DNA of 45,161 nucleotides from Streptosporangiales bacterium (GTDB taxonomy: Bacteria > Actinomycetota > Actinomycetes > Streptosporangiales > WHST01): positions 1 to 45,161 of the forward strand of contig WHST01000045.1 of NCBI GenBank assembly GCA_009379955.1, in the 5' to 3' direction. Positions 21,179-34,445 of the stretch are shown here, in pieces (positions within the stretch are counted from its first letter, which is position 1; each line of letters starts with the position of its first letter). Under the pieces are notes generated by a model. It was given only the letters and a program-made list of their open reading frames with translations. It was not told where the DNA came from and did no database searches. A program made the position numbers and the translations under genes.

Positions 21179-21188
21179 GTGATCATTG

Positions 21189-21917
21189 ATGAACCCCAGG
21201 CAGAGACGAGGCGCCGCCCTCATGATCGTCGCCACACTCGGCGCGATCGTGGTCTTCGTCACGGTGTTGAGCTACGTGAGCTCGGTGCGGGCCGAGGTCG
21301 GCGACCTGGTGACGGTGCTCAAGCTCAAGCAGGATGTGGCCGCCAACGGCGCCGTCACGAAGGCACAGGTCGAGGAGGCCGAGGTACCCAAGCGCTGGCT
21401 GAGCGGACCGTTCGTCTCGGACACGCGTGACCTCGACGGCAAGGTCGCGGTCAACGAGCTGAAGAAGGGCTCGTACCTGCAGACGAGCATGATCATCGAC
21501 GCGCCCTCCCTGCGCCCGGGACAACGGGAGATCGCCATCATGATCGACGCGGAGACCGGTGTCGCCGGCAAGGTCACGTCGGGATCGGTCGTCGACGTGT
21601 ACGCCACCTACACCGAGAGCACCGGTACCCGCAGCAAGTCGTGCGCCACCCAGTTGCTCTCCCACGCGCGCGTCATCGAGGTGGGCAGGCTGCGCACCGA
21701 GAAGGGCGAGGGCGGGAACGAGGATTCCCAGGCAGACCTGAGTCAGGTCGTGCCCGTCACCTTCGCGCTGAGCCAGCGGGACACCAAGCGGCTCGCGTGG
21801 GCCGAGGGCTACGCCACGAAGGTACGACTCGCCCTCATCGGTCCGGGAACCACGGAAGACGAACCGGATACCGGGGAAGTGTGCTCGATCGACCCGGTCA
21901 AGGAACAGACGCCATGA
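21189..21917 (+). CDS. cpaB: CpaB/RcpC-like Flp pilus assembly protein with SAF domain
   Basis: A 242-residue protein: an N-terminal membrane anchor (about 11-31), then a SAF-like domain (about 45-105: K-A-Q-V-E-E-A-E-V-P-K-R-W-L, L-K-K-G-S-Y-L-Q), then the RcpC-type beta domain with A-I-M-I-D-A-E-T-G-V-A-G and G-S-V-V-D-V-Y. In Gram-negative Tad systems RcpC/CpaB works with the outer-membrane secretin; in actinobacteria, which lack that secretin, the homologue probably acts on the outer face of the membrane. The ATG at 21189 is preceded by AGGTGA; a TTG one codon upstream is less likely. Confidence 0.85.
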   Translation: MNPRQRRGAALMIVATLGAIVVFVTVLSYVSSVRAEVGDLVTVLKLKQDVAANGAVTKAQVEEAEVPKRWLSGPFVSDTRDLDGKVAVNELKKGSYLQTSMIIDAPSLRPGQREIAIMIDAETGVAGKVTSGSVVDVYATYTESTGTRSKSCATQLLSHARVIEVGRLRTEKGEGGNEDSQADLSQVVPVTFALSQRDTKRLAWAEGYATKVRLALIGPGTTEDEPDTGEVCSIDPVKEQTP

Positions 21918-21939: not shown

Positions 21940-21981
21940 ATGACACCCGCGACCGTCGACGAACGGGAGGCGCACCGGTGA
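21940..21981 (+). CDS. Possible 13-residue leader ORF between cpaB and tadZ
   Basis: ATG at 21940 is preceded by GGAGG (21928-21932) at the ideal distance of seven bases. The frame ends in a TGA that overlaps the GTG of the tadZ-tadE gene (GTGA, 21978-21981). The arrangement would load ribosomes onto the fusion gene. A chance origin cannot be ruled out; tadZ also has its own GGGAGG at 21965-21970. Confidence 0.3.
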   Translation: MTPATVDEREAHR

Positions 21982-23558
21982 GCTACATGGTGCTGCTGTG
22001 CACGGCGGAAGAGACGACGAGCGGCCGGTTGCGTGCGCAGATCGCCGAGCTGCCCGACATCCACCTCAGCAGCGTCCTGGCCGGCTCGAGCAGTGTCGTG
22101 CCCTACCTCGCCGACAACGGCGGCATCGACTGCCTGCTCCTCGACGAGAGCTTCGGACCGCTGCCGCCGGCCGAGCTGATCCGCGAGGTCACGGGCCGCT
22201 ATCCGCACGTCGCGGTGATCATGCTGGTCGCCGAGGCGACCGCGGGCGTTCTCGGCTCGGCCATGGAGGCCGGTGCCCGCGGCGTCCTCGTCGCGAAGCC
22301 GTCGCTCGAGGACCTCGAGACCAAGATCAGCGGGGTCGCCGAATGGTCGCGCACGATGCGCCGGCACATCGAGGGCTACTCCACGGAGCAGTCGATGGCC
22401 GGCACCACCGGGCGCATCGTGGTGGTGGCAGGCAGCAAGGGCGGCACGGGCACCACGACCCTGGCGGTCCACCTCGCCCTGGCCGCGACGAGCGCCCGCA
22501 GATCGGTCTGCCTCGTCGACATGGACCTCCAGGCCGGCGACGTGCCGACCTATCTCGACATCACCCACCGCCGCAGCATCGTCGACCTCGCGGAGGCTGC
22601 GGACGAGATCAGCGGCACGGTGCTCGCCGACACGCTCTTCGCGCACCGCGCCGGGCCACACGTGCTCCTCGCGCCACGTGACGGCGAACGTGCCGAGGAC
22701 GTGTCGAGCACCGCCACCCGCCAGCTGCTCGGCAGCCTGCGGTCGCGGTACGACCTCGTCATCGTCGACTGCGGCGCCTACGTCACGGACGCCGCCGCCA
22801 TGGCCACCGAGATCGCCGACTTCGCCGTCATCACGGTCACCCCCGACATGCCCGCACTCCGTGGCGCCCGCCGGCTGGTGGAGATGTGGGAGCGCCTCCA
22901 GGTCCGCAAGCGCGACGACCTGGCCGTGGTCGTCAACCGGCACCACAGGCAGAGCGAGATCCAACCCGACTTCGTCCGCAAGGTCCTCGGCTTCCGCGTG
23001 CTCACGGCCACCGTGCCTTCGGTCTTCCGCGGCCTGGAGTCCGCGGCGAACACCGGCACCCCGTCCGAGGTCGAGAACCCCGCGTTCCGCAAGGCGATGG
23101 GTCGGATGTTGCGCGAGATCGGTGCGCTCCAGGGACCGCCGCACGGCGCGGTGCAGACGGTGAACGTGCCCGCTCCGGCACCGGCCGGCAAGGGCAAGCG
23201 CAAGAAGAAGACCAGGCCCAGGCAGGCGGGGCAGGCCACGATCGAGTTCGTCGCGATGCTCCCGTTCATCGCCATCCTGGTGATCGTGCTGTGGGAGTCG
23301 CTGCTGCTCGGCATGGCGATGATGACGGCCAGCCATGCGGCCAACGAAGGTGCCAGAGCCGCGGCGGTGGGGCTGGCACCCGACAAGGTCCGCGAGCGCG
23401 CCCACGAGCGCATGCCGGGTGACTGGTCGAAACGCTCCACGATCGACTACCGCGAGGGCGACGACAAGGTCACGGTGTCGCTGCGTGTGCCCGTCCTGAT
23501 GCCCCGCATCGAGGCCCCGTGGCACATGACGGCCTCGGCGGAGGTGGTGCACGAATGA
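21978..23558 (+). CDS. TadZ/CpaE-like ATPase fused to a TadE-like pseudopilin
   Basis: A 526-residue two-part protein. Residues 1-120 resemble a receiver-like domain without the full phospho-Asp set (D-C-L-L-L-D at 51-56). Residues 145-390 are a MinD/ParA-type ATPase with deviant Walker A G-S-K-G-G-T-G-T-T-T (152-161) and D-M-D-L-Q-A-G-D-V. A basic linker (K-G-K-R-K-K-K) leads to a TadE segment from about 416: G418 then Q-A-T-I-E-F and a membrane helix (423-445). TadZ localises Tad pili; TadE is a minor pseudopilin. The two are normally separate. The G|QATIEF site with Glu at +5 fits prepilin-peptidase cleavage that would release the ATPase. GTG start, GGGAGG seven bases upstream. Confidence 0.85.
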   Translation: MSYMVLLCTAEETTSGRLRAQIAELPDIHLSSVLAGSSSVVPYLADNGGIDCLLLDESFGPLPPAELIREVTGRYPHVAVIMLVAEATAGVLGSAMEAGARGVLVAKPSLEDLETKISGVAEWSRTMRRHIEGYSTEQSMAGTTGRIVVVAGSKGGTGTTTLAVHLALAATSARRSVCLVDMDLQAGDVPTYLDITHRRSIVDLAEAADEISGTVLADTLFAHRAGPHVLLAPRDGERAEDVSSTATRQLLGSLRSRYDLVIVDCGAYVTDAAAMATEIADFAVITVTPDMPALRGARRLVEMWERLQVRKRDDLAVVVNRHHRQSEIQPDFVRKVLGFRVLTATVPSVFRGLESAANTGTPSEVENPAFRKAMGRMLREIGALQGPPHGAVQTVNVPAPAPAGKGKRKKKTRPRQAGQATIEFVAMLPFIAILVIVLWESLLLGMAMMTASHAANEGARAAAVGLAPDKVRERAHERMPGDWSKRSTIDYREGDDKVTVSLRVPVLMPRIEAPWHMTASAEVVHE

Positions 23559-23917
23559 CGACGTCACGTCGGTATGCGCGGGGCTCACGCGGTCAGGCGA
23601 CGATCGAGACCGTCGCCTACCTGCCCCTGCTGTTCGCCATCTTCTTCACGGTCGTCGAGGTCTTCGCCTACTTCATGACCATGGAGCAGGTCGACAACGC
23701 CGCGCGGACCGGTGCGCGGGTGGAGAGCCAGGGCTTCAACGGGAGTGTGGCCGCCCGCAGGGCGTTGCCGGAGTCGGTCCGCAAGCAGGGATCCACGATC
23801 GTGGTCAACAGCGACGGCGTGACCGCGACGGCGACCGTCACCGGGCAGGTGCCGATCATCTTCAACGGACCGATCGACTGGAAGGTCACCCGTACCGTCC
23901 AGATGCCGGTGGGTTGA
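23555..23917 (+). CDS. TadE-like minor pseudopilin
   Basis: A 120-residue protein with a short basic leader, the processing site G13|Q-A-T-I-E-T (Glu at +5), and a single hydrophobic helix (Y-L-P-L-L-F-A-I-F-F-T-V-V-E-V). The C-terminal half is a small beta-rich domain outside the membrane. TadE proteins are processed by the prepilin peptidase and needed for pilus assembly. Its ATG overlaps the previous stop (ATGA) and GAGGTGG precedes it. It is the second TadE in a row, after the TadE part of the fusion. Confidence 0.88.
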   Translation: MTTSRRYARGSRGQATIETVAYLPLLFAIFFTVVEVFAYFMTMEQVDNAARTGARVESQGFNGSVAARRALPESVRKQGSTIVVNSDGVTATATVTGQVPIIFNGPIDWKVTRTVQMPVG

Positions 23918-23919
23918 CC

Positions 23920-25251
23920 ATGAGCCTCAAGGACCGCGTCGACAACGGCGACTCCCCCGCGGCGACCGACGAGTCCGTCGGGGTCGCGCACTGGCGCGAG
24001 CGCCTGCTCGACGAGATCGACTTCACCGAGCTCGCCGGGCTCGACGTGCCGCAGCGACGTGCCCGGCTGGAACGCGTCACCGGCCACATCGTCAGCCGCG
24101 AGGGCCCCGTCCTGTCGAACCGCGAGCGCGCGGCACTCATCCGCCGCATCGTCGACGAGGCCCTGGGGCTCGGCGTGCTCGAGCCGCTCCTCGCAGACGA
24201 GACGATCACCGAGATCATGGTCAACGGCCGCAACGACGTCTACATCGAGCGCAACGGCCTCATCCAGCGCATCGACACCGAGTTCACGAGCGACGAGCAG
24301 CTCTACCAGACCATCGACCGCATCGTGTCGCAGGTCAACCGCCGCGTCGACGAGTCGAGTCCGATGGTCGACGCGAGGCTGCCCACCGGTGAACGGGTCA
24401 ACGTCATCGTCCCGCCGCTCGCCCTGTCCGGGCCGACGCTGACCATCCGTCGCTTCCCCCGGCCGTACCCGATGGACGAGCTCGTCCGGCTGGGGACGAT
24501 CGACGTGCCGACCGCCGGCCTGCTCGCGGCCATGGTGCGCGCGCGGTTCAACGTCGTGATCTCCGGCGGCACGGGCACCGGCAAGACCACCTTCCTCAAC
24601 GCGCTGTCCGGGCTCATCCCCGAAGAGGAGCGCATCGTCACCATCGAGGACGCGGCGGAGCTCCAACTCCAGCAGGACCACGTGGTGCGGCTGGAGTCCA
24701 GACCGCCGAACGTCGAGGGCAAGGGAGCGATACCGATCCGCGAGCTGGTGCGCAACTCGCTGCGCATGCGCCCCGACCGGATCATCGTCGGCGAGGTCCG
24801 CGGTGCCGAGACGCTCGACATGCTGCAGGCGATGAACACCGGGCACGACGGCTCGCTCGTCACCGTGCACGCGAACTCGACGGATGACGCCATCTACCGA
24901 CTCGAGACCCTCGCGAGCATGAGCGAGGTCAACATCCCGTACGACGCGGTACGCGACCAGATCAACAGCGCGGTCCACGTCATCGTGCACCTCGACAGGG
25001 GGATCGACGGCAGCCGCAGGATCGTCGAGGTGGCCGGCATCGCGTCCCGCCGCAGGGAGAACTTCCAGCTCCAGACACTCCTGGAGTTCGAGCCGGAGCC
25101 CATGGGTCCCGAGCGGATCGTGCGCGGGGAGTTCGTCCACCGGCCGATCCCCCCGGCGATGGCCAAGCGCCTCACCTATGCCGGCGAGGCGGTGCCCGCG
25201 ACCTTCGGTGTGTCCTCCGTGGACGACCGCAACAAGCGGGAGGCCACGTGA
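23920..25251 (+). CDS. tadA: TadA/CpaF-type pilus assembly ATPase
   Basis: A 443-residue secretion-superfamily ATPase that powers pilus extension (and in some species retraction) from the cytoplasmic face. Walker A is G-G-T-G-T-G-K-T-T (216-224), the Asp box T-I-E-D-A-A-E (241-247), Walker B R-I-I-V-G-E-V-R-G (287-295) and the His box G-H-D-G-S-L-V-T-V-H-A-N-S (308-320). The N-terminal domain carries I-T-E-I-M-V-N-G, typical of CpaF. All key residues are intact. The ATG at 23920 is two codons after an alternative TTG. It overlaps the tadB start by four bases. Confidence 0.95.
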   Translation: MSLKDRVDNGDSPAATDESVGVAHWRERLLDEIDFTELAGLDVPQRRARLERVTGHIVSREGPVLSNRERAALIRRIVDEALGLGVLEPLLADETITEIMVNGRNDVYIERNGLIQRIDTEFTSDEQLYQTIDRIVSQVNRRVDESSPMVDARLPTGERVNVIVPPLALSGPTLTIRRFPRPYPMDELVRLGTIDVPTAGLLAAMVRARFNVVISGGTGTGKTTFLNALSGLIPEEERIVTIEDAAELQLQQDHVVRLESRPPNVEGKGAIPIRELVRNSLRMRPDRIIVGEVRGAETLDMLQAMNTGHDGSLVTVHANSTDDAIYRLETLASMSEVNIPYDAVRDQINSAVHVIVHLDRGIDGSRRIVEVAGIASRRRENFQLQTLLEFEPEPMGPERIVRGEFVHRPIPPAMAKRLTYAGEAVPATFGVSSVDDRNKREAT

Positions 25252-26180
25252 CGGGCAACGTCCTGCTCCCGATCGGTGCCATGGTCGTGGTTCTCGGCCT
25301 CGCCCTGCTGGGGGTGTGGCAGTACGGCAGGGGCCTCGACCAGAAGGGATCCCTGGCCGCACGCAACCCGCTCAGCGACGCCGAGCGCCGGGCGCGCCGG
25401 CCGATGGCGCGGCTCGACAAGGCGCTGGCCCGTACGGCACTCGGCCAGTCGGTCGGTCGGCGTATCGCGGCCGCGGGTGTCCAGGTCCGCGTCTCGACCT
25501 TCGTGATGACACTGTTCCTGGTGGCCGTCGGGGCCGTGGCGGCCGCGTGGCGCTGGCTCGCACCGTTGTTCGGCGTGGTCGCCGCCATCGTCGTCGTCTG
25601 GGTGTTCCTGCAGTACCTCCGCCAGATGGAGGAACGTCGCAAGGAGGCCTTCATCGGCCAGCTGCCGGAGCTCGCCCGGGTGCTCTCGAACGCCTTCTCC
25701 GCCGGCCTCGCCCTCCGCACGGCGGTCGAGATGGCCGCGGACGAGCTCGACGAGCCGGCACGCACCGAGCTCCAGATCACCGCGCACTCGCTGCGGCTCG
25801 GCCAGTCGACCGAGCAGGCACTCGCCGATCTCGGCGACCGGCTGCCGTCGCGGGAGCTGTCGGTCCTGGTGAGCACGCTCATCATCTCGTCCAGGGCGGG
25901 CGGTTCGATGGTCACGGCCCTGCGCAACCTGTCCAGCACGCTCGAAGCCCGCAAGGAGGTGCGTCGCGAGGTCAAGACGACCATGGCTCAGGCCGTGTAC
26001 ACCGGCTACCTGATCGGCGCGATGGGTGTCGGCATGCTGTTCCTGGTCAACTACATCATTCCGAACGGGCTCGCGACCATGACCTCCGATCCGGTCGGCC
26101 TGGTCATCCTCGTCATCAGCACGGCACTGTTCGCGACCGGCGTCGTGGTGGTCAACCGGATGAGCAGGATCGACCTGTGA
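25248..26180 (+). CDS. tadB: TadB-like inner-membrane platform protein
   Basis: A 310-residue type II secretion F-domain protein. Hydrophobic segments lie near residues 5-22, 85-105, 108-125, and two at the C-terminus (about 245-265 and 275-300). The T2SSF core includes Q-L-P-E-L-A-R-V-L-S-N-A-F-S-A-G-L-A-L and S-S-R-A-G-G-S-M-V-T-A-L-R-N-L. It forms the membrane platform moved by TadA. GTG start overlaps the tadA stop (GTGA), and its own stop touches the tadC start. Confidence 0.92.
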   Translation: MTGNVLLPIGAMVVVLGLALLGVWQYGRGLDQKGSLAARNPLSDAERRARRPMARLDKALARTALGQSVGRRIAAAGVQVRVSTFVMTLFLVAVGAVAAAWRWLAPLFGVVAAIVVVWVFLQYLRQMEERRKEAFIGQLPELARVLSNAFSAGLALRTAVEMAADELDEPARTELQITAHSLRLGQSTEQALADLGDRLPSRELSVLVSTLIISSRAGGSMVTALRNLSSTLEARKEVRREVKTTMAQAVYTGYLIGAMGVGMLFLVNYIIPNGLATMTSDPVGLVILVISTALFATGVVVVNRMSRIDL

Positions 26181-27097
26181 TGACCACGCTGCTCGTCCTC
26201 GGCTGCGCGGTGGGCGCGGCGCTCTGCACGGTGCTCGCGGCTCGCGGCTGGCTGCTGGTCACGACACAGCCATCGGTGCCGCGGTACTTCTCGATGTCCG
26301 AGCGCAGGCGACGAGCCGCCAGGCTGCCCAAGGACGAGAAGGGGCCGCTGAGCAAGATCGTCGAGTCGGTCGGGCGGCCCTTCGCCGGACTGCTGGGTTC
26401 CCTGCTCGGCCCCGAGCGCACCGAGCGCTACCGGCAACGGCTGGGGCGGTCGGGTCGCGCCGGTGCGGTGCCGGTCGAGGTCTACCTCGCGAGGAAGGCC
26501 GGCTCGGTCATCCTGTTCGGCCTCTTCGCGGTCGTCTTCTTCTTCGCCAGGCAGTGGTTCCTCGGCGTCGTCTTCCTGCTGATCGGGTGGTTCTGGCTCG
26601 ATCTCATGCTCTGGGCGTACGCCCGCAGGCGCGCCACCGAGATCGAGAAGGCGTTGCCCGACTTCCTCGACGTGCTGTCGGTGACGGTCAGTGCCGGTCT
26701 CGGCTTCCGCCGCGCGCTGTGGCGGGTGTGCGAGAGCATGCCCGGCCCGCTCGCGGAGGAGTTCACGCTCGCCCTCCAGCAGATGGACCTCGGCACCAGT
26801 CGCAGGGACGCGCTGCGGCAGATCAGGAGCCGCACGTCGTCGCCGACGCTGTCGCAGTTCCTGACCGCGATCCTGCAGGCCGAGGAGCTCGGTGCCCCGC
26901 TGTCGGATGCCCTCATCGAGATCAGCGTCGACATGCGGCGCAACACCTCGCAGGAGGCCCGGCGGCGCGCGGCCCGTACGGCGCCACGCATCCAGCTGGT
27001 GGTCACGTTCCTGATGGTGCCTGCCGCACTCATCCTGCTGCTCGGCGCCATCATCCTCTCGATGTCCCAGGGAGGAGGAGTCGGTGTTCTCGGTTAG
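26180..27097 (+). CDS. tadC: TadC-like inner-membrane platform protein
   Basis: A 305-residue second F-domain platform protein. Two central membrane segments (about 95-125) are followed by A-L-P-D-F-L-D-V-L-S-V-T-V-S-A-G-L-G-F-R-R-A-L and Q-A-E-E-L-G-A-P-L-S-D-A-L, and a hydrophobic C-terminus. It pairs with TadB. The ATG at 26180 overlaps the tadB stop by one base; a GTG one codon upstream is also possible. The 3' end overlaps the histidine kinase gene by 14 bases, and the GGAGGAGGAG inside its last codons serves the kinase. Confidence 0.92.
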   Translation: MTTLLVLGCAVGAALCTVLAARGWLLVTTQPSVPRYFSMSERRRRAARLPKDEKGPLSKIVESVGRPFAGLLGSLLGPERTERYRQRLGRSGRAGAVPVEVYLARKAGSVILFGLFAVVFFFARQWFLGVVFLLIGWFWLDLMLWAYARRRATEIEKALPDFLDVLSVTVSAGLGFRRALWRVCESMPGPLAEEFTLALQQMDLGTSRRDALRQIRSRTSSPTLSQFLTAILQAEELGAPLSDALIEISVDMRRNTSQEARRRAARTAPRIQLVVTFLMVPAALILLLGAIILSMSQGGGVGVLG

Positions 27098-28346
27098 CTC
27101 CTCCTACACCCTGCAACCCAGGGCGGCGCAGCTGTGCCGGCTGCTCCTGCGGGTACGGCTCGTCATCGCGCTGTTCGCCCTGCTGCTGCTGGTGACCCAC
27201 CCGCTGAGCGCGCGCTTCGTCGTCGCGTTCCTCGGCGCGTTCGTCACCTCGCTGCTCGCCTACGTGTTCTGGCGCCGCATCACCCAGGTACTTCAACGAC
27301 ACCCCATCCTCGCCGGCCTCGACGTCGTGGTCTCGTTCATCGTGCTCGGCCTCGGCGGATCGTCGACCCCGTTCCTGCTGCTCACCGTGATCACGTCGGC
27401 GATCGCGGGGCTTCTGTACCGGTGGGGAGGCGTGCTCTACATCTCCACGCTGCAGGTGATCTGCTACTTCACGGTCCTGTTCTTCCAACCGGGCTCGACC
27501 GAGATGTGGAACTTCCAGACCGTCGTCGGTCAGCCGTTGTACTACCCGCTCGCGGGGTTCCTCGGGGTGTGGGTCCGCCGACTGCTCGACGAGACCGCCT
27601 CGACCGACCAGCTGCGGCGGGAGGCGGAAGTCCTCGCGGCGGCGGCCGAGGAGCGGGCACGGCTGGCCCGCGAGATGCACGACTCGCTCGCGAAGACCGT
27701 CCGTGGCATCGAGTTCGCCGCGACCGCGCTGCCGCGATGGGTCGAGCGCGACCCGGAACGCGCCGGCACCGAGGCGCGGCGCATCGCGTCCGCCGCGGCC
27801 ATCGCGTCCAGGGAGGCCAGGGACCTACTGTCGGAGCTGCGGGCGGCCGCCGACGGCGTGGAGCGGCCCCTCGTGCCCACCCTGACGTCCCTCGTCACCG
27901 AGTGGTCGGCACGCACGGGCATCCCGACCGAGCTCAGCACCGCGAGCGACGTCGAGCTGCCCGCGCGCAACCGCTACGAGATGACGGCGACCCTCGCCGA
28001 GGCGCTCTCCAACATCGAACGTCACGCGGCGGCGTCCCGGGTCTCGGTGACGCTGGCACCCGTCGACGGCACGCTCCGCCTCGTCGTCACCGACGACGGG
28101 CGTGGCTTCGCCCTCGAACAACGAGACGAGCTTGTGCGGGAGGGCCACTACGGGCTCCTCGGCATGAGCGAGCGCGCCAGGCGCGCGGGCGGCGCCCTGA
28201 CGGTCGACTCGCATCCCGGTCAGGGCACGACGATCACGCTCTCGGTGCCGCTGCCGGACCCGACCTCCACCGCCCGCGGCCACGTCGATCCGTCGACACC
28301 GGCTCCACCCGTTCCATCCACCCACGAACCGGTCAAGGCACGGTGA
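27084..28346 (+). CDS. NarL-type sensor histidine kinase in the Tad operon
   Basis: A 420-residue kinase. The N-terminal half has about five to six membrane segments (residues 22-165) with little outside loop, suggesting it senses something in or near the membrane. The HisKA_3 dimer region has the phospho-acceptor His199 in R-E-M-H-D-S-L-A-K-T. The ATPase domain shows E-A-L-S-N-I-E-R-H-A (N box) and D-D-G-R-G-F (G box), with G-L-L-G-M-S-E-R-A after. A Pro/Thr-rich tail ends the protein. GTG start with a very strong GGAGGAGGAG. Its stop overlaps the response regulator start (GTGA), so the two form a pair. Confidence 0.93.
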   Translation: MFSVSSSYTLQPRAAQLCRLLLRVRLVIALFALLLLVTHPLSARFVVAFLGAFVTSLLAYVFWRRITQVLQRHPILAGLDVVVSFIVLGLGGSSTPFLLLTVITSAIAGLLYRWGGVLYISTLQVICYFTVLFFQPGSTEMWNFQTVVGQPLYYPLAGFLGVWVRRLLDETASTDQLRREAEVLAAAAEERARLAREMHDSLAKTVRGIEFAATALPRWVERDPERAGTEARRIASAAAIASREARDLLSELRAAADGVERPLVPTLTSLVTEWSARTGIPTELSTASDVELPARNRYEMTATLAEALSNIERHAAASRVSVTLAPVDGTLRLVVTDDGRGFALEQRDELVREGHYGLLGMSERARRAGGALTVDSHPGQGTTITLSVPLPDPTSTARGHVDPSTPAPPVPSTHEPVKAR

Positions 28347-29190: not shown

Positions 29191-29463
29191 ATGAACACCA
29201 AGATGCTCTCGCTCTACTGCTCCGCACAGATCTCGGTCCGCAACTTCGTCGACACCCAGGCGACAGCGCTCAGGGAGCGTCGGGAGAGCGGCCAGGCGAC
29301 GCTCGAGTACGTCGCGCTCATCGTTCTCCTCGCCGCGGCGCTCGCGGTCGGCTTCATCGCGATGCAGGGCATCACCAAGGGCCCGCTCGTCGACTTCGTG
29401 CAGAACGTGATCAAGGCCGGTCTCAACGCCGCACTCAAGGCGCTCGGGATCACCGTCGAGTAA
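29191..29463 (+). CDS. Flp-family major pilin
   Basis: A 90-residue prepilin. A 34-residue leader ends in E-S-G, then the mature start Q-A-T-L-E-Y with Glu at +5 and Tyr at +6, the Flp signature. One hydrophobic helix follows (V-A-L-I-V-L-L-A-A-A-L-A-V-G-F), then an amphipathic C-terminus ending in G-I-T-V-E. AGGAGA lies four bases before the ATG. Flp pilins polymerise into thin adhesive fibres after cutting by the prepilin peptidase (36058-36720). It stands directly after the kinase/regulator pair and a hairpin block, which suits separate high-level expression. Confidence 0.92.
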   Translation: MNTKMLSLYCSAQISVRNFVDTQATALRERRESGQATLEYVALIVLLAAALAVGFIAMQGITKGPLVDFVQNVIKAGLNAALKALGITVE

Positions 29464-29486: not shown

Positions 29487-30488
29487 GTGAAGCGGTACAA
29501 GCGCGGCGAGGAAGGCGGGGTCTACCCCGTCTTCCTCGTCGCGTTCATGGTCGTGATCGCCATGGCGGCGGTGCTGATGCACGTGGGCAAGGCCGGTGAC
29601 ATGCGCACCAGGGCGCAGACGGCCGCCGACGCCGCCGCACTCGGCGCGGTCGCCGAGATCCGCGACCGGGCTCTCGGCCTCCTCGTCCAGGGCATGATCC
29701 CCTGGGCCGGCTACAGCCCCGAGACCACCCCCGACGCGGCGCGCAGGTACGCCAAGCGCAACGACGCCACCGTTACCCACGTCGACCACCGCGGCATCTT
29801 CGCCAACTACGCTGTCGTCGACGTCCGCGGCGACGAGCGGCTGCAGGGGATCTTCGAGAAGTTCCGCGGCGGACGCGCCGAGGCCGACGCGATCGCCAAG
29901 GTCGACTTCCCCGAGTGCACCCCGTTCCCGCTGGCGGATCCGCTGGGCGAGAACCCGGCCGCGATCAGGGGACTCCTGTGCGACGGCACGTACGTGCCGA
30001 TCGGCTCGAGTCCCAAGACATGGATCCGCCTGTTCACCATCCGGCTCGTCGCGAAGGCTCCCAAGAAGGAGCCGCTCGCGATCAGCCCACTCGGCACCGG
30101 CCGGCAGGTCCCGTCATCCGCCGGCAGCGCGGACCTGTGCGCACAGGTCGGCTTCAACGCCGGTTTCCGGGAACGCCACCTGCTCATCACCGCCGTCGCC
30201 GTCGCCCTGGCCGAGTCGAGCTGCCGCCCGACCGCCCAGAACACCAACACCAACGGCACGGGCGACTTCGGGCTCTGGCAGATCAACAGCATCCACGGCT
30301 ATCCGCTGTCGTGCCTCTACAACGCCCAGTGCAACGCCAACGCCGCCTACCGCATCTACAGCGACAGCGGCAACTTCCTGCCCTGGTGCACCTACGAGAA
30401 ACCCGCCTGCGGCGGCGTCGGCAACGGGTCGTACCGGCAGCACATCACCGCTGCGACGGCGGCCGTCGATCGGCTCGGCAAGGCCTAG
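29487..30488 (+). CDS. TadG-like membrane-anchored protein with C-terminal lytic-transglycosylase domain
   Basis: A 333-residue protein with an N-terminal TadG-like part: helix at about 12-33, then G-D-M-R-T-R-A-Q-T-A-A-D-A-A-A-L-G-A, the classic TadE/G motif. A middle region (70-210) of unknown fold follows. The C-terminus (about 215-333) is a lysozyme-like SLT domain: A-L-A-E-S-S-C with catalytic Glu243, then G-D-F-G-L-W-Q-I-N-S-I-H-G-Y. Eight or more cysteines suggest disulfides outside the cell. It would cut peptidoglycan strands where the pilus passes the wall. GTG start, 24 bases after the pilin stop. Unlike the TadE proteins it lacks a clear G|xxxxE site. Confidence 0.88.
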   Translation: MKRYKRGEEGGVYPVFLVAFMVVIAMAAVLMHVGKAGDMRTRAQTAADAAALGAVAEIRDRALGLLVQGMIPWAGYSPETTPDAARRYAKRNDATVTHVDHRGIFANYAVVDVRGDERLQGIFEKFRGGRAEADAIAKVDFPECTPFPLADPLGENPAAIRGLLCDGTYVPIGSSPKTWIRLFTIRLVAKAPKKEPLAISPLGTGRQVPSSAGSADLCAQVGFNAGFRERHLLITAVAVALAESSCRPTAQNTNTNGTGDFGLWQINSIHGYPLSCLYNAQCNANAAYRIYSDSGNFLPWCTYEKPACGGVGNGSYRQHITAATAAVDRLGKA

Positions 30489-31163: not shown

Positions 31164-32309
31164 TCACCTGCGGTAGACGATCTCGACTCGGCGGTTCAGC
31201 GCCCGGCCCTCGGGGTTGTCGCTGCCCTTGACCGTGTTGGCGGCGACCGGGTCCTTCTCTCCGTAACCCTTGGCGGTCAACGTGATCCCCGTACCCGAGA
31301 GCAGCGGACCGAGCTCCTTGCGCACGGCATCGGCACGCCGCTTCGACAGCGACAGGTTGTAGGAGTCGGATCCCTTGCTGTCGGTGTAGCCGCGGACCTC
31401 GACCGGCCCGCTCGCGTTCTTGCGCAGGATCGCGGCGGCCTCGGCGATGCGTGACCTCGCCTTGCCGGTCAGCGTCGCCTTGTCGAAGGCGAACAGCACG
31501 TCGGCGGCGAGGGTGACCTTGCCCTTCTCCTCGCGCACCGACAGGTCGATGTTGGCGGTCTCGGCCGAGATGTCGACGACAGGGGCCTTCGCGGCCGGTG
31601 CCGTGGAGTGCGGCTGTGCCACGAGGACGGCCGGCATCGTCTGACCGGGCTCGGGAGTGGGGAGCGGCGTGGCCGGCGGCGCCCCGTCGGTGATCGGGAC
31701 GTCGCGGAACAGGCCGAACGTGGGCAGGTAGACGCTCATCGTCGACACGTCGACTGCCGGAACGGCGTAGGTCGCCGAGACCAGGGTGGTCATGCCCGTA
31801 CCGAACTTGGGGTTGGTCGAGCACAGGCACTTGTTGTCCGCGTCACGGGCGACGAGATACGCCTTGCCCGCCTTCATGTCGAGGAGGTTCATGCCGGTCG
31901 ACTCGTTGAGCGACGGGTCCTGGTCCTCGAGGTCGCTCGGCGCGCTGAGCAGGAAGGTCATGCCCCCGACGAATCCCGCGGGTGCGTCGCCGGCCACCCG
32001 CAACCCCACCTGGAGCTGCGCGTTCTCACCGTCTCGGTAGATGCCGTAGACCGATGCGACCAGGTACGTGCTCGCCGCCGGAAACGCCGAGCCTGCCGTG
32101 TCCTCGTACGGGACCTGTGCCACGCGCTCGGCGACCGGCTGCCGCTGTCCGTCCGGGGTGGCGGTGTTCGACGCGGGCGAGGAGCTCTGCGGCGCAGAGC
32201 TCGACGGTGACGGGTCGTCACCACCACCGAACAGGCCACAAGCGCTGACGCTGACGGCAGCGCCGAGCACGGCAGCCGTCCTGATCGTCCTGCGCACGCG
32301 GATACCCAT
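31164..32309 (-). CDS. OmpA-family lipoprotein with one C-x-C domain (A-OmpA architecture)
   Basis: A 381-residue lipoprotein (lipobox S-V-S-A-C, Cys24). Domain A spans about 75-210 (V-A-S-V-Y-G-I-Y-R, K-C-L-C-S at 160-164, F-G-L-F-R-D-V-P-I). The linker K-A-P-V-V-D-I-S leads to an OmpA domain (262-381) with L-F-A-F-D-K, G-Y-T-D-S-K-G-S and conserved Asp310 and Arg325, the residues that grip peptidoglycan in this family. Residues 1-380 align with the 542-residue paralogue without net length change. OmpA domains on actinobacterial lipoproteins should tie the membrane surface to the wall. It heads an operon with the type-B lipoprotein five bases downstream. Confidence 0.9.
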   Translation of the reverse strand: MGIRVRRTIRTAAVLGAAVSVSACGLFGGGDDPSPSSSAPQSSSPASNTATPDGQRQPVAERVAQVPYEDTAGSAFPAASTYLVASVYGIYRDGENAQLQVGLRVAGDAPAGFVGGMTFLLSAPSDLEDQDPSLNESTGMNLLDMKAGKAYLVARDADNKCLCSTNPKFGTGMTTLVSATYAVPAVDVSTMSVYLPTFGLFRDVPITDGAPPATPLPTPEPGQTMPAVLVAQPHSTAPAAKAPVVDISAETANIDLSVREEKGKVTLAADVLFAFDKATLTGKARSRIAEAAAILRKNASGPVEVRGYTDSKGSDSYNLSLSKRRADAVRKELGPLLSGTGITLTAKGYGEKDPVAANTVKGSDNPEGRALNRRVEIVYRR

Positions 32310-32880: not shown

Positions 32881-32966
32881 TCCGGTGCCGATGGGTCCGT
32901 GGGCCCAGCCCGAATTGGAGCGCAGGACTCTCGTTGCCGGGACGCCGCGGACCTAGTGTGACGGTC

Positions 32967-34445
32967 ATGGTGGGATCGGCGAGATGGCGCAATGCGCGGC
33001 GCAACCGTCAACGGGGGGCCGCGACTGTCGAGTATCTCGCCGTCCTGCTCATTCTCGCGTCCTCGCTCTCCGTCGGCCTCGTCACCGGGCTCGCCAAGGG
33101 CGCGCTCGTCGACCAGGTGAACTTCGCGCTGTGCAAGAGCATGGTGAAGGCCGTCCGCGTCCTCGGCGTCGAGGTCGAGAACACGTGCGTCGCGCCGATG
33201 CCGAAGAACATGCCGCCGTGCGTGACGTACAAGCAGGACCGCCTGTTGGGCGCCAACGGCACGTTCCGCTTCATCCGCGGCGAGCTGACCGGCAAGGACA
33301 CGATCGTCGACCTCGTCGACCCGGTGACGGGCGACGAGTCGGCCCTCGTCTTCCTGAGCAACGAGGCCGGCGTCGGGCTCGAGTACAACGACAGCGTGTC
33401 CAAGGGCAAGTTCACCAGCGCGATGGAGAGCAGGGGTCTGTCGCCCCAGGGGAAGCTCATGCTGCAGGGCGGCACCGGCGTCGTGTACGAGTTCGACTCG
33501 CACGAGGACGCGCAGAACTTCCTCGACTCGCGCCGCGGCAACCTGTTCACCCGCGGGCTCGGCGTCATCACCGGCGGCAAGGCCGACGCGCTCTTCGACG
33601 GCGCCCGCAACCTCTTCAACGACATCACCGGGAACGACGACGACGATGCTCCGACTCCGTCGGGCCTCACCGCCGATCTCGCCATCCAGGCCGAGGCCGG
33701 GCTCAGCTACGAGACCGGCACCCAGAGCCAGACGAACGGCGCGAGCTTCCGCCTCGATGCGACCGCGAACGGCGAGGCGCGCGGGCAGTTCCGCTACAAC
33801 TTCGACGGTACGTCCCAGATCGAGGTGCGCTTCGAGGGCGAGGTCGGCCTGGAGGGCGGCGTCGGCGCGAACGAGCACCTCAAGGACCAGATCCCCCTGC
33901 TCGGCGACCTGAGCGTGACCGGGGGCGGCAACCTCGCCGGCGCGGTCGGCTACCGGCTCCGGTTCGACAAGCACGGCAACCCGACGCAGTTCGTGCTCAC
34001 CACCGAGTCCGGCGGCGGCCTCCAGTGGAAGGCCGGCGCCAACCGCGGCCACGCCGGCGGCCAGGACGGCGAGCTGACGGTCAACACGTACACGCTCGAC
34101 CTGACCAACCCGGAGAACATGGACGCCTTCGCGGACTCGTTCCCGGCGCTCGCGGCGGGTCAGCTCGCGAGCCCGATCTCGCCCGTCGCCATCCTCACGA
34201 CCGACAACCCGATCTCGCGGCGGCTGAAGGAGAACAGCGTCCAGTACGAGCAGGTGTACGACACCGAGGGCGACATGCTCGGCGTCGACTCACCGGACAG
34301 CGCGAACGAGAAGGGCCTGAAGATCAAGGGCGTCGGGATCGGCTTCAACGACGAGACCGCCAAGCGGACCCTCAGGACCGCCCGCTACATCGACCACAGC
34401 CAGCCCGGCTCGACCTGGCAGAATCTCGCCAAATGCGAGGGTTGA
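32967..34445 (+). CDS. Flp-like pilin head fused to a large extracellular domain
   Basis: A 492-residue protein. Residues 1-71 look like a whole Flp pilin: basic leader, G17|A-A-T-V-E-Y (Glu at +5), hydrophobic helix (24-43), then K-G-A-L-V-D-Q-V and L-G-V-E-V-E, matching the major pilin (29191-29463) almost end to end. A cysteine-bearing joint (N-T-C, P-P-C-V-T-Y) leads to about 420 residues of new sequence: a mixed part to 230 (F-L-S-N-E-A-G-V-G-L-E), an acidic hinge (N-D-D-D-D-A-P-T-P), then glycine-rich beta repeats (E-V-R-F-E-G-E-V-G-L-E-G-G-V-G). It is most easily read as a tip or side adhesin carried by the pilus. It lies 2.5 kb past the main operon and overlaps the next lipoprotein gene by 13 bases. 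Confidence 0.85.
   Translation: MVGSARWRNARRNRQRGAATVEYLAVLLILASSLSVGLVTGLAKGALVDQVNFALCKSMVKAVRVLGVEVENTCVAPMPKNMPPCVTYKQDRLLGANGTFRFIRGELTGKDTIVDLVDPVTGDESALVFLSNEAGVGLEYNDSVSKGKFTSAMESRGLSPQGKLMLQGGTGVVYEFDSHEDAQNFLDSRRGNLFTRGLGVITGGKADALFDGARNLFNDITGNDDDDAPTPSGLTADLAIQAEAGLSYETGTQSQTNGASFRLDATANGEARGQFRYNFDGTSQIEVRFEGEVGLEGGVGANEHLKDQIPLLGDLSVTGGGNLAGAVGYRLRFDKHGNPTQFVLTTESGGGLQWKAGANRGHAGGQDGELTVNTYTLDLTNPENMDAFADSFPALAAGQLASPISPVAILTTDNPISRRLKENSVQYEQVYDTEGDMLGVDSPDSANEKGLKIKGVGIGFNDETAKRTLRTARYIDHSQPGSTWQNLAKCEG

Follow-up and report, generated by a model that had tools for sequence, protein, structure and literature searches.

The window, which is the whole stretch of 45,161 nucleotides analysed here, carries a tad pilus locus in which tadZ and tadE form one gene (Table 1). 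The initial annotation had described both as a single open frame, and this was confirmed by two Pfam matches above the cut-off: AAA_31 at residues 146–316 (52.2 bits, cut-off 27) and TadE at residues 418–460, the latter by a narrow margin (24.6 bits, cut-off 22.9). The sequence GGGAGG was located at positions 21965–21970, 7 nt 5' of the start codon.

Table 1. Features of the tad locus and of the fused gene. The slash marks the predicted cut of the prepilin peptidase.
Feature	Positions	Strand	Support or remark
CpaB/RcpC	21186–21917	+	PF16976, PF08666
tadZ-tadE fusion gene, 526 aa, GTG start	21978–23558	+	Uninterrupted open frame; Pfam AAA_31 and TadE
Receiver-like N-terminal domain, residues 1–132 (~130)	21978–22373	+	AlphaFold2 model, high pLDDT
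MinD/ParA-type ATPase domain, residues 146–380, closing with helix 368–380	22413–23117	+	Pfam, PDB sequence match, model, fold search
Disordered basic linker, residues 391–419, with leader-like KGKRKKKTRPRQAG	23148–23234	+	pLDDT <50
Three in-frame GTG codons (23151, 23160, 23166)	23151–23168	+	Sole candidate internal starts in the linker
Gly418, residue -1 of the predicted cut (AG/QATIEF)	23229–23231	+	Invariant in 81/81 fused and 109/109 separate genes
TadE minor-pilin domain: helix 418–463, then pilin-like head, three strands	23229–23555	+	PF07811; model
tadE2 (second minor pilin), 13-aa leader, SRG/QATIET	23555–23917	+	PF07811, 42.1 bits
TadA/CpaF ATPase	23914–25251	+	PF00437
TadB platform protein	25248–26180	+	PF00482
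TadC platform protein	26177–27097	+	PF00482
Flp-type major pilin, 34-aa leader, ESG/QATLEY	29191–29463	+	Class III site
TadG-like protein with lysozyme-like domain (Tad + SLT_3)	29487–30488	+	Domain search
A24 prepilin peptidase, short TadV type, 220 aa	36058–36720	-	PF01478, 45.3 bits (cut-off 26.5)

Architecture of the fused gene

The first part of the protein has the organization of TadZ/CpaE, with a receiver-like domain followed by a MinD/ParA-type ATPase that contains a deviant Walker A motif (KGGTGTTT, residues 154–161), and its gene lies inside a tad locus. The Response_reg match in the N-terminus (residues 45–117) was weak and under the cut-off. Comparison of the ATPase part with PDB sequences retrieved 3ea0 (E=7.7e-17), and the best solved-structure match to the AlphaFold2 model of the fusion was 3fkq (395 columns in the fold search), a two-domain protein from Eubacterium rectale, which we take to be the TadZ of this organism. 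The domain architecture of E. rectale TadZ has been described (PMC13170226). Two narrower families were matched under their cut-offs, TIGR03815 (the actinobacterial Ssd equivalog) with 80.9 bits (curated cut-off 154.45) and NF041390 (the Rv3655c subfamily of TadE) with 26.2 bits (cut-off 40). Judged by this comparison, the TadZ part is related to the Ssd equivalog and is not a member of it. The linker is the longest stretch of the fusion model with pLDDT below 50, and the pilin helix begins exactly at residue 418.

The stop codon of the fusion (TGA) is overlapped by the ATG of tadE2 (ATGA). Immediately after the tad platform genes lies a histidine kinase gene (27084–28346, plus strand), a possible regulator of the pilus. 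Directly 3' of the Flp pilin gene, a TadG-like N-terminus and an SLT_3 domain are combined in one protein (29487–30488, plus strand), which may make an opening for the pilus in the cell wall. A gene for a protein with an OmpA-family domain (31164–32309, minus strand) is found close to the tad locus, on the opposite strand.

Distribution and history of the fusion

TadZ relatives were sought in the genome collection and in the order and class to which the window belongs, and 194 loci were classed by their open frames. A survey of related genomes had been proposed in the initial annotation, and it revealed the fusion in several actinobacterial families: 81 of the 190 classifiable loci were fused and 109 were separate (in four more no TadE was found), although these counts are not prevalences, because a fused query was used to retrieve the loci by similarity. 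The nearest relative, sister locus L021 from a separate assembly (an Actinophytocola MAG), is fused and 82% identical. Over 20 genera within the window's order have fused genes, which also occur in Wenjunlia, part of Streptomyces and at least four other families of the class. As judged from these genes, it is an old fusion, frequent in the order and with a scattered occurrence in Streptomyces and other families. Within the window's own genus the locus appears patchy, no close homologue of the window's TadZ having been found in the same-genus genomes G001 and G002 (three genomes were covered by the genus and family searches). The plasmid search retrieved distant TadZ relatives only, none of which covers the query.

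The initial annotation had considered a sequence error that hides a stop codon between the two parts, and the window's sequence does come from a single draft assembly, but a lost stop codon or a frameshift was ruled out by the independently assembled sister and by 79 further fused loci, including two from complete-genome records (L032 and L035), so that the probability of an assembly artefact is negligible. The TadZ-TadE fusion is therefore real, and it is a widespread and old variant of the Tad system and not a new kind of system.

In a tree of 87 rows without outgroup, the label fused or separate changed at least six times, and fusion could not be told apart from fission. Once 17 unfused distant TadZ rows were included as outgroup, seven label changes were obtained, at least five of which are required by well-supported branches, and fusion was the state of all the earliest ingroup branches; the root of the ingroup is unsure, because several basal rows have long branches. 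These sequences are most simply read as a single old fusion with about six later splits. After every split TadE is found with the same site, preceded by its own short leader, which indicates that the two parts are able to function as separate proteins. In many of the split pairs, the tadE start overlaps the tadZ stop by 4 or 8 nt (ATGA/GTGA type), and such overlapping genes are probably co-translated or translationally coupled. Hence, the proposal that the fusion secures equal amounts of both products was not borne out, and neither was the idea of a control point that separate-gene systems lack, since the split relatives probably achieve the same coupling. A control point through the fusion is possible.

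The site at the joint and the prepilin peptidase

Gly418 is followed by Q-A-T-I-E423-F, and the glutamate at +5 reported in the initial annotation was confirmed from the sequence. The joint thus has the elements of a class III signal, with Gly or Ala at -1, Glu at +5 and about 20 hydrophobic residues after the site (AG/QATIEFVAMLPFIAILVIVLWESL). Prepilin leaders end in Gly or Ala (PMC10191384), and those of described pilins are short and hydrophilic, with 6–51 residues (PMC6916266). With the full-length product as substrate, the leader of the fusion would comprise 418 residues.

Across the aligned junctions of the 81 fusions, no column of the examined TadE segment other than Gly(-1) was fully invariant, and the median identity in the first ~45 mature TadE residues was 48%. 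All four glycine codons (GGC, GGT, GGG and GGA) are in use at this position, which indicates that the residue is conserved at the protein level. Asp(-3) was found in 75 of the 81 fusions. Linkers of 7–128 residues were observed, and the basic leader-like stretch had a median charge of +3 in fused and in separate genes alike. Glu+5 was replaced in 10 of the 81 fusions (7 Asp, 2 Gly and 1 Gln) and in 0 of the 109 separate genes (p=0.00014, without correction for kinship); the latter count presumes the placement chosen by the aligner, which left gaps at +1/+2 in some separate sequences. Nine of these ten fusions (L102, L103, L113, L119, L126, L163, L170, L171, L177 and L178) belong to one genus, and the adjoining TadE2 kept its Glu+5 in all eight cases that could be read. 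An association of Glu+5 loss with short linkers (p=0.0003 overall) was discarded as confounded by genus; inside g56 the linker lengths overlap fully.

The A24 peptidase that the initial annotation had assigned to the window was corroborated by the PF01478 match above the cut-off. The protein belongs to the TadV type, with two motif regions for the catalytic Asp (one of them GWGD) and no methylase domain, and it is the only PF01478 match detected in the genome. An A24 peptidase was found in 326 of the 342 genomes of the window's order, and there is no fused genome among those that lack it. Because the enzyme is near-universal in the order, its presence in the fused genomes is weak evidence.

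Three other candidate class III sites are present in the window, namely those of TadE2, of Flp and of a 493-aa protein. The sequences after the predicted cuts in the first two are nearly identical to the QATIEF of the fusion. The 493-aa protein (32964–34445, plus strand) has a class III-type N-terminus (RNRQRG/AATVEYLAVLLILASS, with the site QRG/AATVEY) and a long C-terminal part without Pfam match, and it is possibly a large minor pilin or a pilus-borne adhesin.

Proposed fate of the two halves

The best explanation is a TadZ-TadE precursor that would be cleaved after Gly418 by the A24 peptidase, a reading to which we assign a probability of about 0.7. The hydrophobic helix 418–440 would insert into the membrane with its N-terminus inside and its C-terminus outside, so that the folded TadZ part stays in the cytoplasm, at the usual place of a prepilin leader. 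In described systems the leader lies on the cytoplasmic side, and the active site of the peptidase is on the same side, near the membrane (PMC10191384). The predicted topology permits the cut, because the TadZ part would be cytoplasmic and therefore on the side of the active site. The A24 enzyme, with its active site facing the cytoplasm near the membrane, could then cut after Gly418. The freed TadZ, with a short basic tail, would join the ring around the TadA motor, and the mature TadE, starting with QATIEFV, would join a minor-pilin complex with TadE2. In the Caulobacter model, CpaE forms a ring around the motor, with six CpaE dimers per machine, for which a 1:1 synthesis with a tip pilin would be no obvious match (PMC13170226).

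A cut is more likely than none, given that all the fusions have Gly(-1) while the linker drifts, and that the site was kept through about six splits. The prepilin peptidase needs this glycine, and an uncut linker has no evident need of it, so the invariance speaks for a cut, even if the residue could in principle be kept at the start of the helix for some other reason. Against cleavage, a folded leader of 418 residues falls outside the published range, and in some relatives the linker has only 7–12 residues, which leaves little room for the peptidase. The replacement of Glu+5 in ten fusions also weighs against it, since the fused TadE of some relatives may have ceased to be an ordinary assembled pilin. 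A more elaborate scheme is conceivable, to which we give a low probability, in which the uncut precursor is a functional intermediate. The TadE part would bring TadZ to the membrane, the base would be built, and the A24 cut would then release the pilin to the tip complex, thereby timing pilus initiation; in the subgroup lacking Glu+5 the fusion may have turned into a permanent tether.

A rival reading, also of low probability, is that the fusion is left uncut and that TadZ is anchored in the membrane at the pilus base by the TadE helix, in place of the amphipathic helix proposed for CpaE. The Caulobacter model places the two parts together at the inner membrane (PMC13170226), and fusion of a cytoplasmic protein with a membrane partner is found in PilM-PilN of C. 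difficile (PMC6916266). The short linkers and the loss of Glu+5 in one genus also fit with an anchor. However, besides the invariant glycine, the TadZ part appears in the model to retain its own C-terminal helix (368–380), and about six independent splits gave rise to separate genes that keep the site. In type II secretion, Glu5 is likewise missing from the minor pseudopilin nearest the tip. The fused TadE may be the tip-most subunit, or a tether in the genus with Glu+5 loss.

A further, improbable alternative is that TadE is made behind a leader of about 22–27 residues from an internal GTG (23151, 23160 or 23166), whether or not the full-length product is made too. The initial annotation advised a check for an internal start near 23150–23220, and the three in-frame codons are indeed well placed, the resulting leaders being of normal length, but none of them has a Shine-Dalgarno match. 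In the sister L021 the single GTG of the linker is at -17, a non-homologous position. Among the relatives, a linker ATG with a Shine-Dalgarno-like motif was observed in L109, L165 and L166, and such motifs were commoner before start codons of the linker (31%) than before start-like codons within the ATPase part (11%). On the other hand, start codons make up 1.8% of the linker codons as compared with 6.0% in the ATPase part, a difference to which amino-acid composition contributes, and 42 of the 81 fusion linkers have no ATG, GTG or TTG. The latter result rules out an internal start as the family-wide source of TadE, and with it the notion that TadE might be made only in this way fails as a general explanation. 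Internal initiation is unlikely in the window's gene, and a linker start codon may be used in single relatives.

No description of a TadZ-TadE fusion was found in the open-access literature searched, where it is apparently undescribed. Like the fusion, TadZ/CpaE proteins combine a receiver-like domain with a MinD/ParA-type ATPase and are encoded between cpaB/rcpC and tadA, but those described end after the ATPase, whereas the window's gene adds a basic linker at the C-terminus, together with a complete TadE pilin. The TadV-cut TadE of A. actinomycetemcomitans and the TadE/TadF of M. luteus and M. tuberculosis share with the fusion the G/xxxxE site, the hydrophobic helix and the small pilin head, and their systems, like the window's genome, have an A24 peptidase without methylase domain; the difference lies in the leader, which in the fusion is an entire ATPase. 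To our knowledge, the joint of C. difficile PilM-PilN contains no prepilin-peptidase site. This type IV pilus protein resembles the fusion in that a cytoplasmic ring protein is joined to a membrane partner of the same machine, but no processing has been proposed at its joint (PMC6916266). Neighbouring tad genes are also joined in the single TadB/TadC ORF of tad-2 in the actinobacterium M. luteus, although in that case both parts are platform proteins and no cleavage site was reported (PMC4322843).

If the precursor is cut as we propose, it would be a prepilin-peptidase substrate whose leader is a complete and separately useful enzyme, and A24 peptidases would be able to process polyproteins. 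The fusion would also provide a natural way to study how TadZ and the minor pilins are linked in Gram-positive Tad pili, which is poorly understood.

The separate TadZ of Streptomyces often ends in a GDRGSxxxRRR-like tail, as in loci L024, L060, L076 and L093, and some fused Streptomyces genes carry this motif just ahead of the real site. The tail resembles a duplicated prepilin leader motif and is probably a remnant of the old joint.
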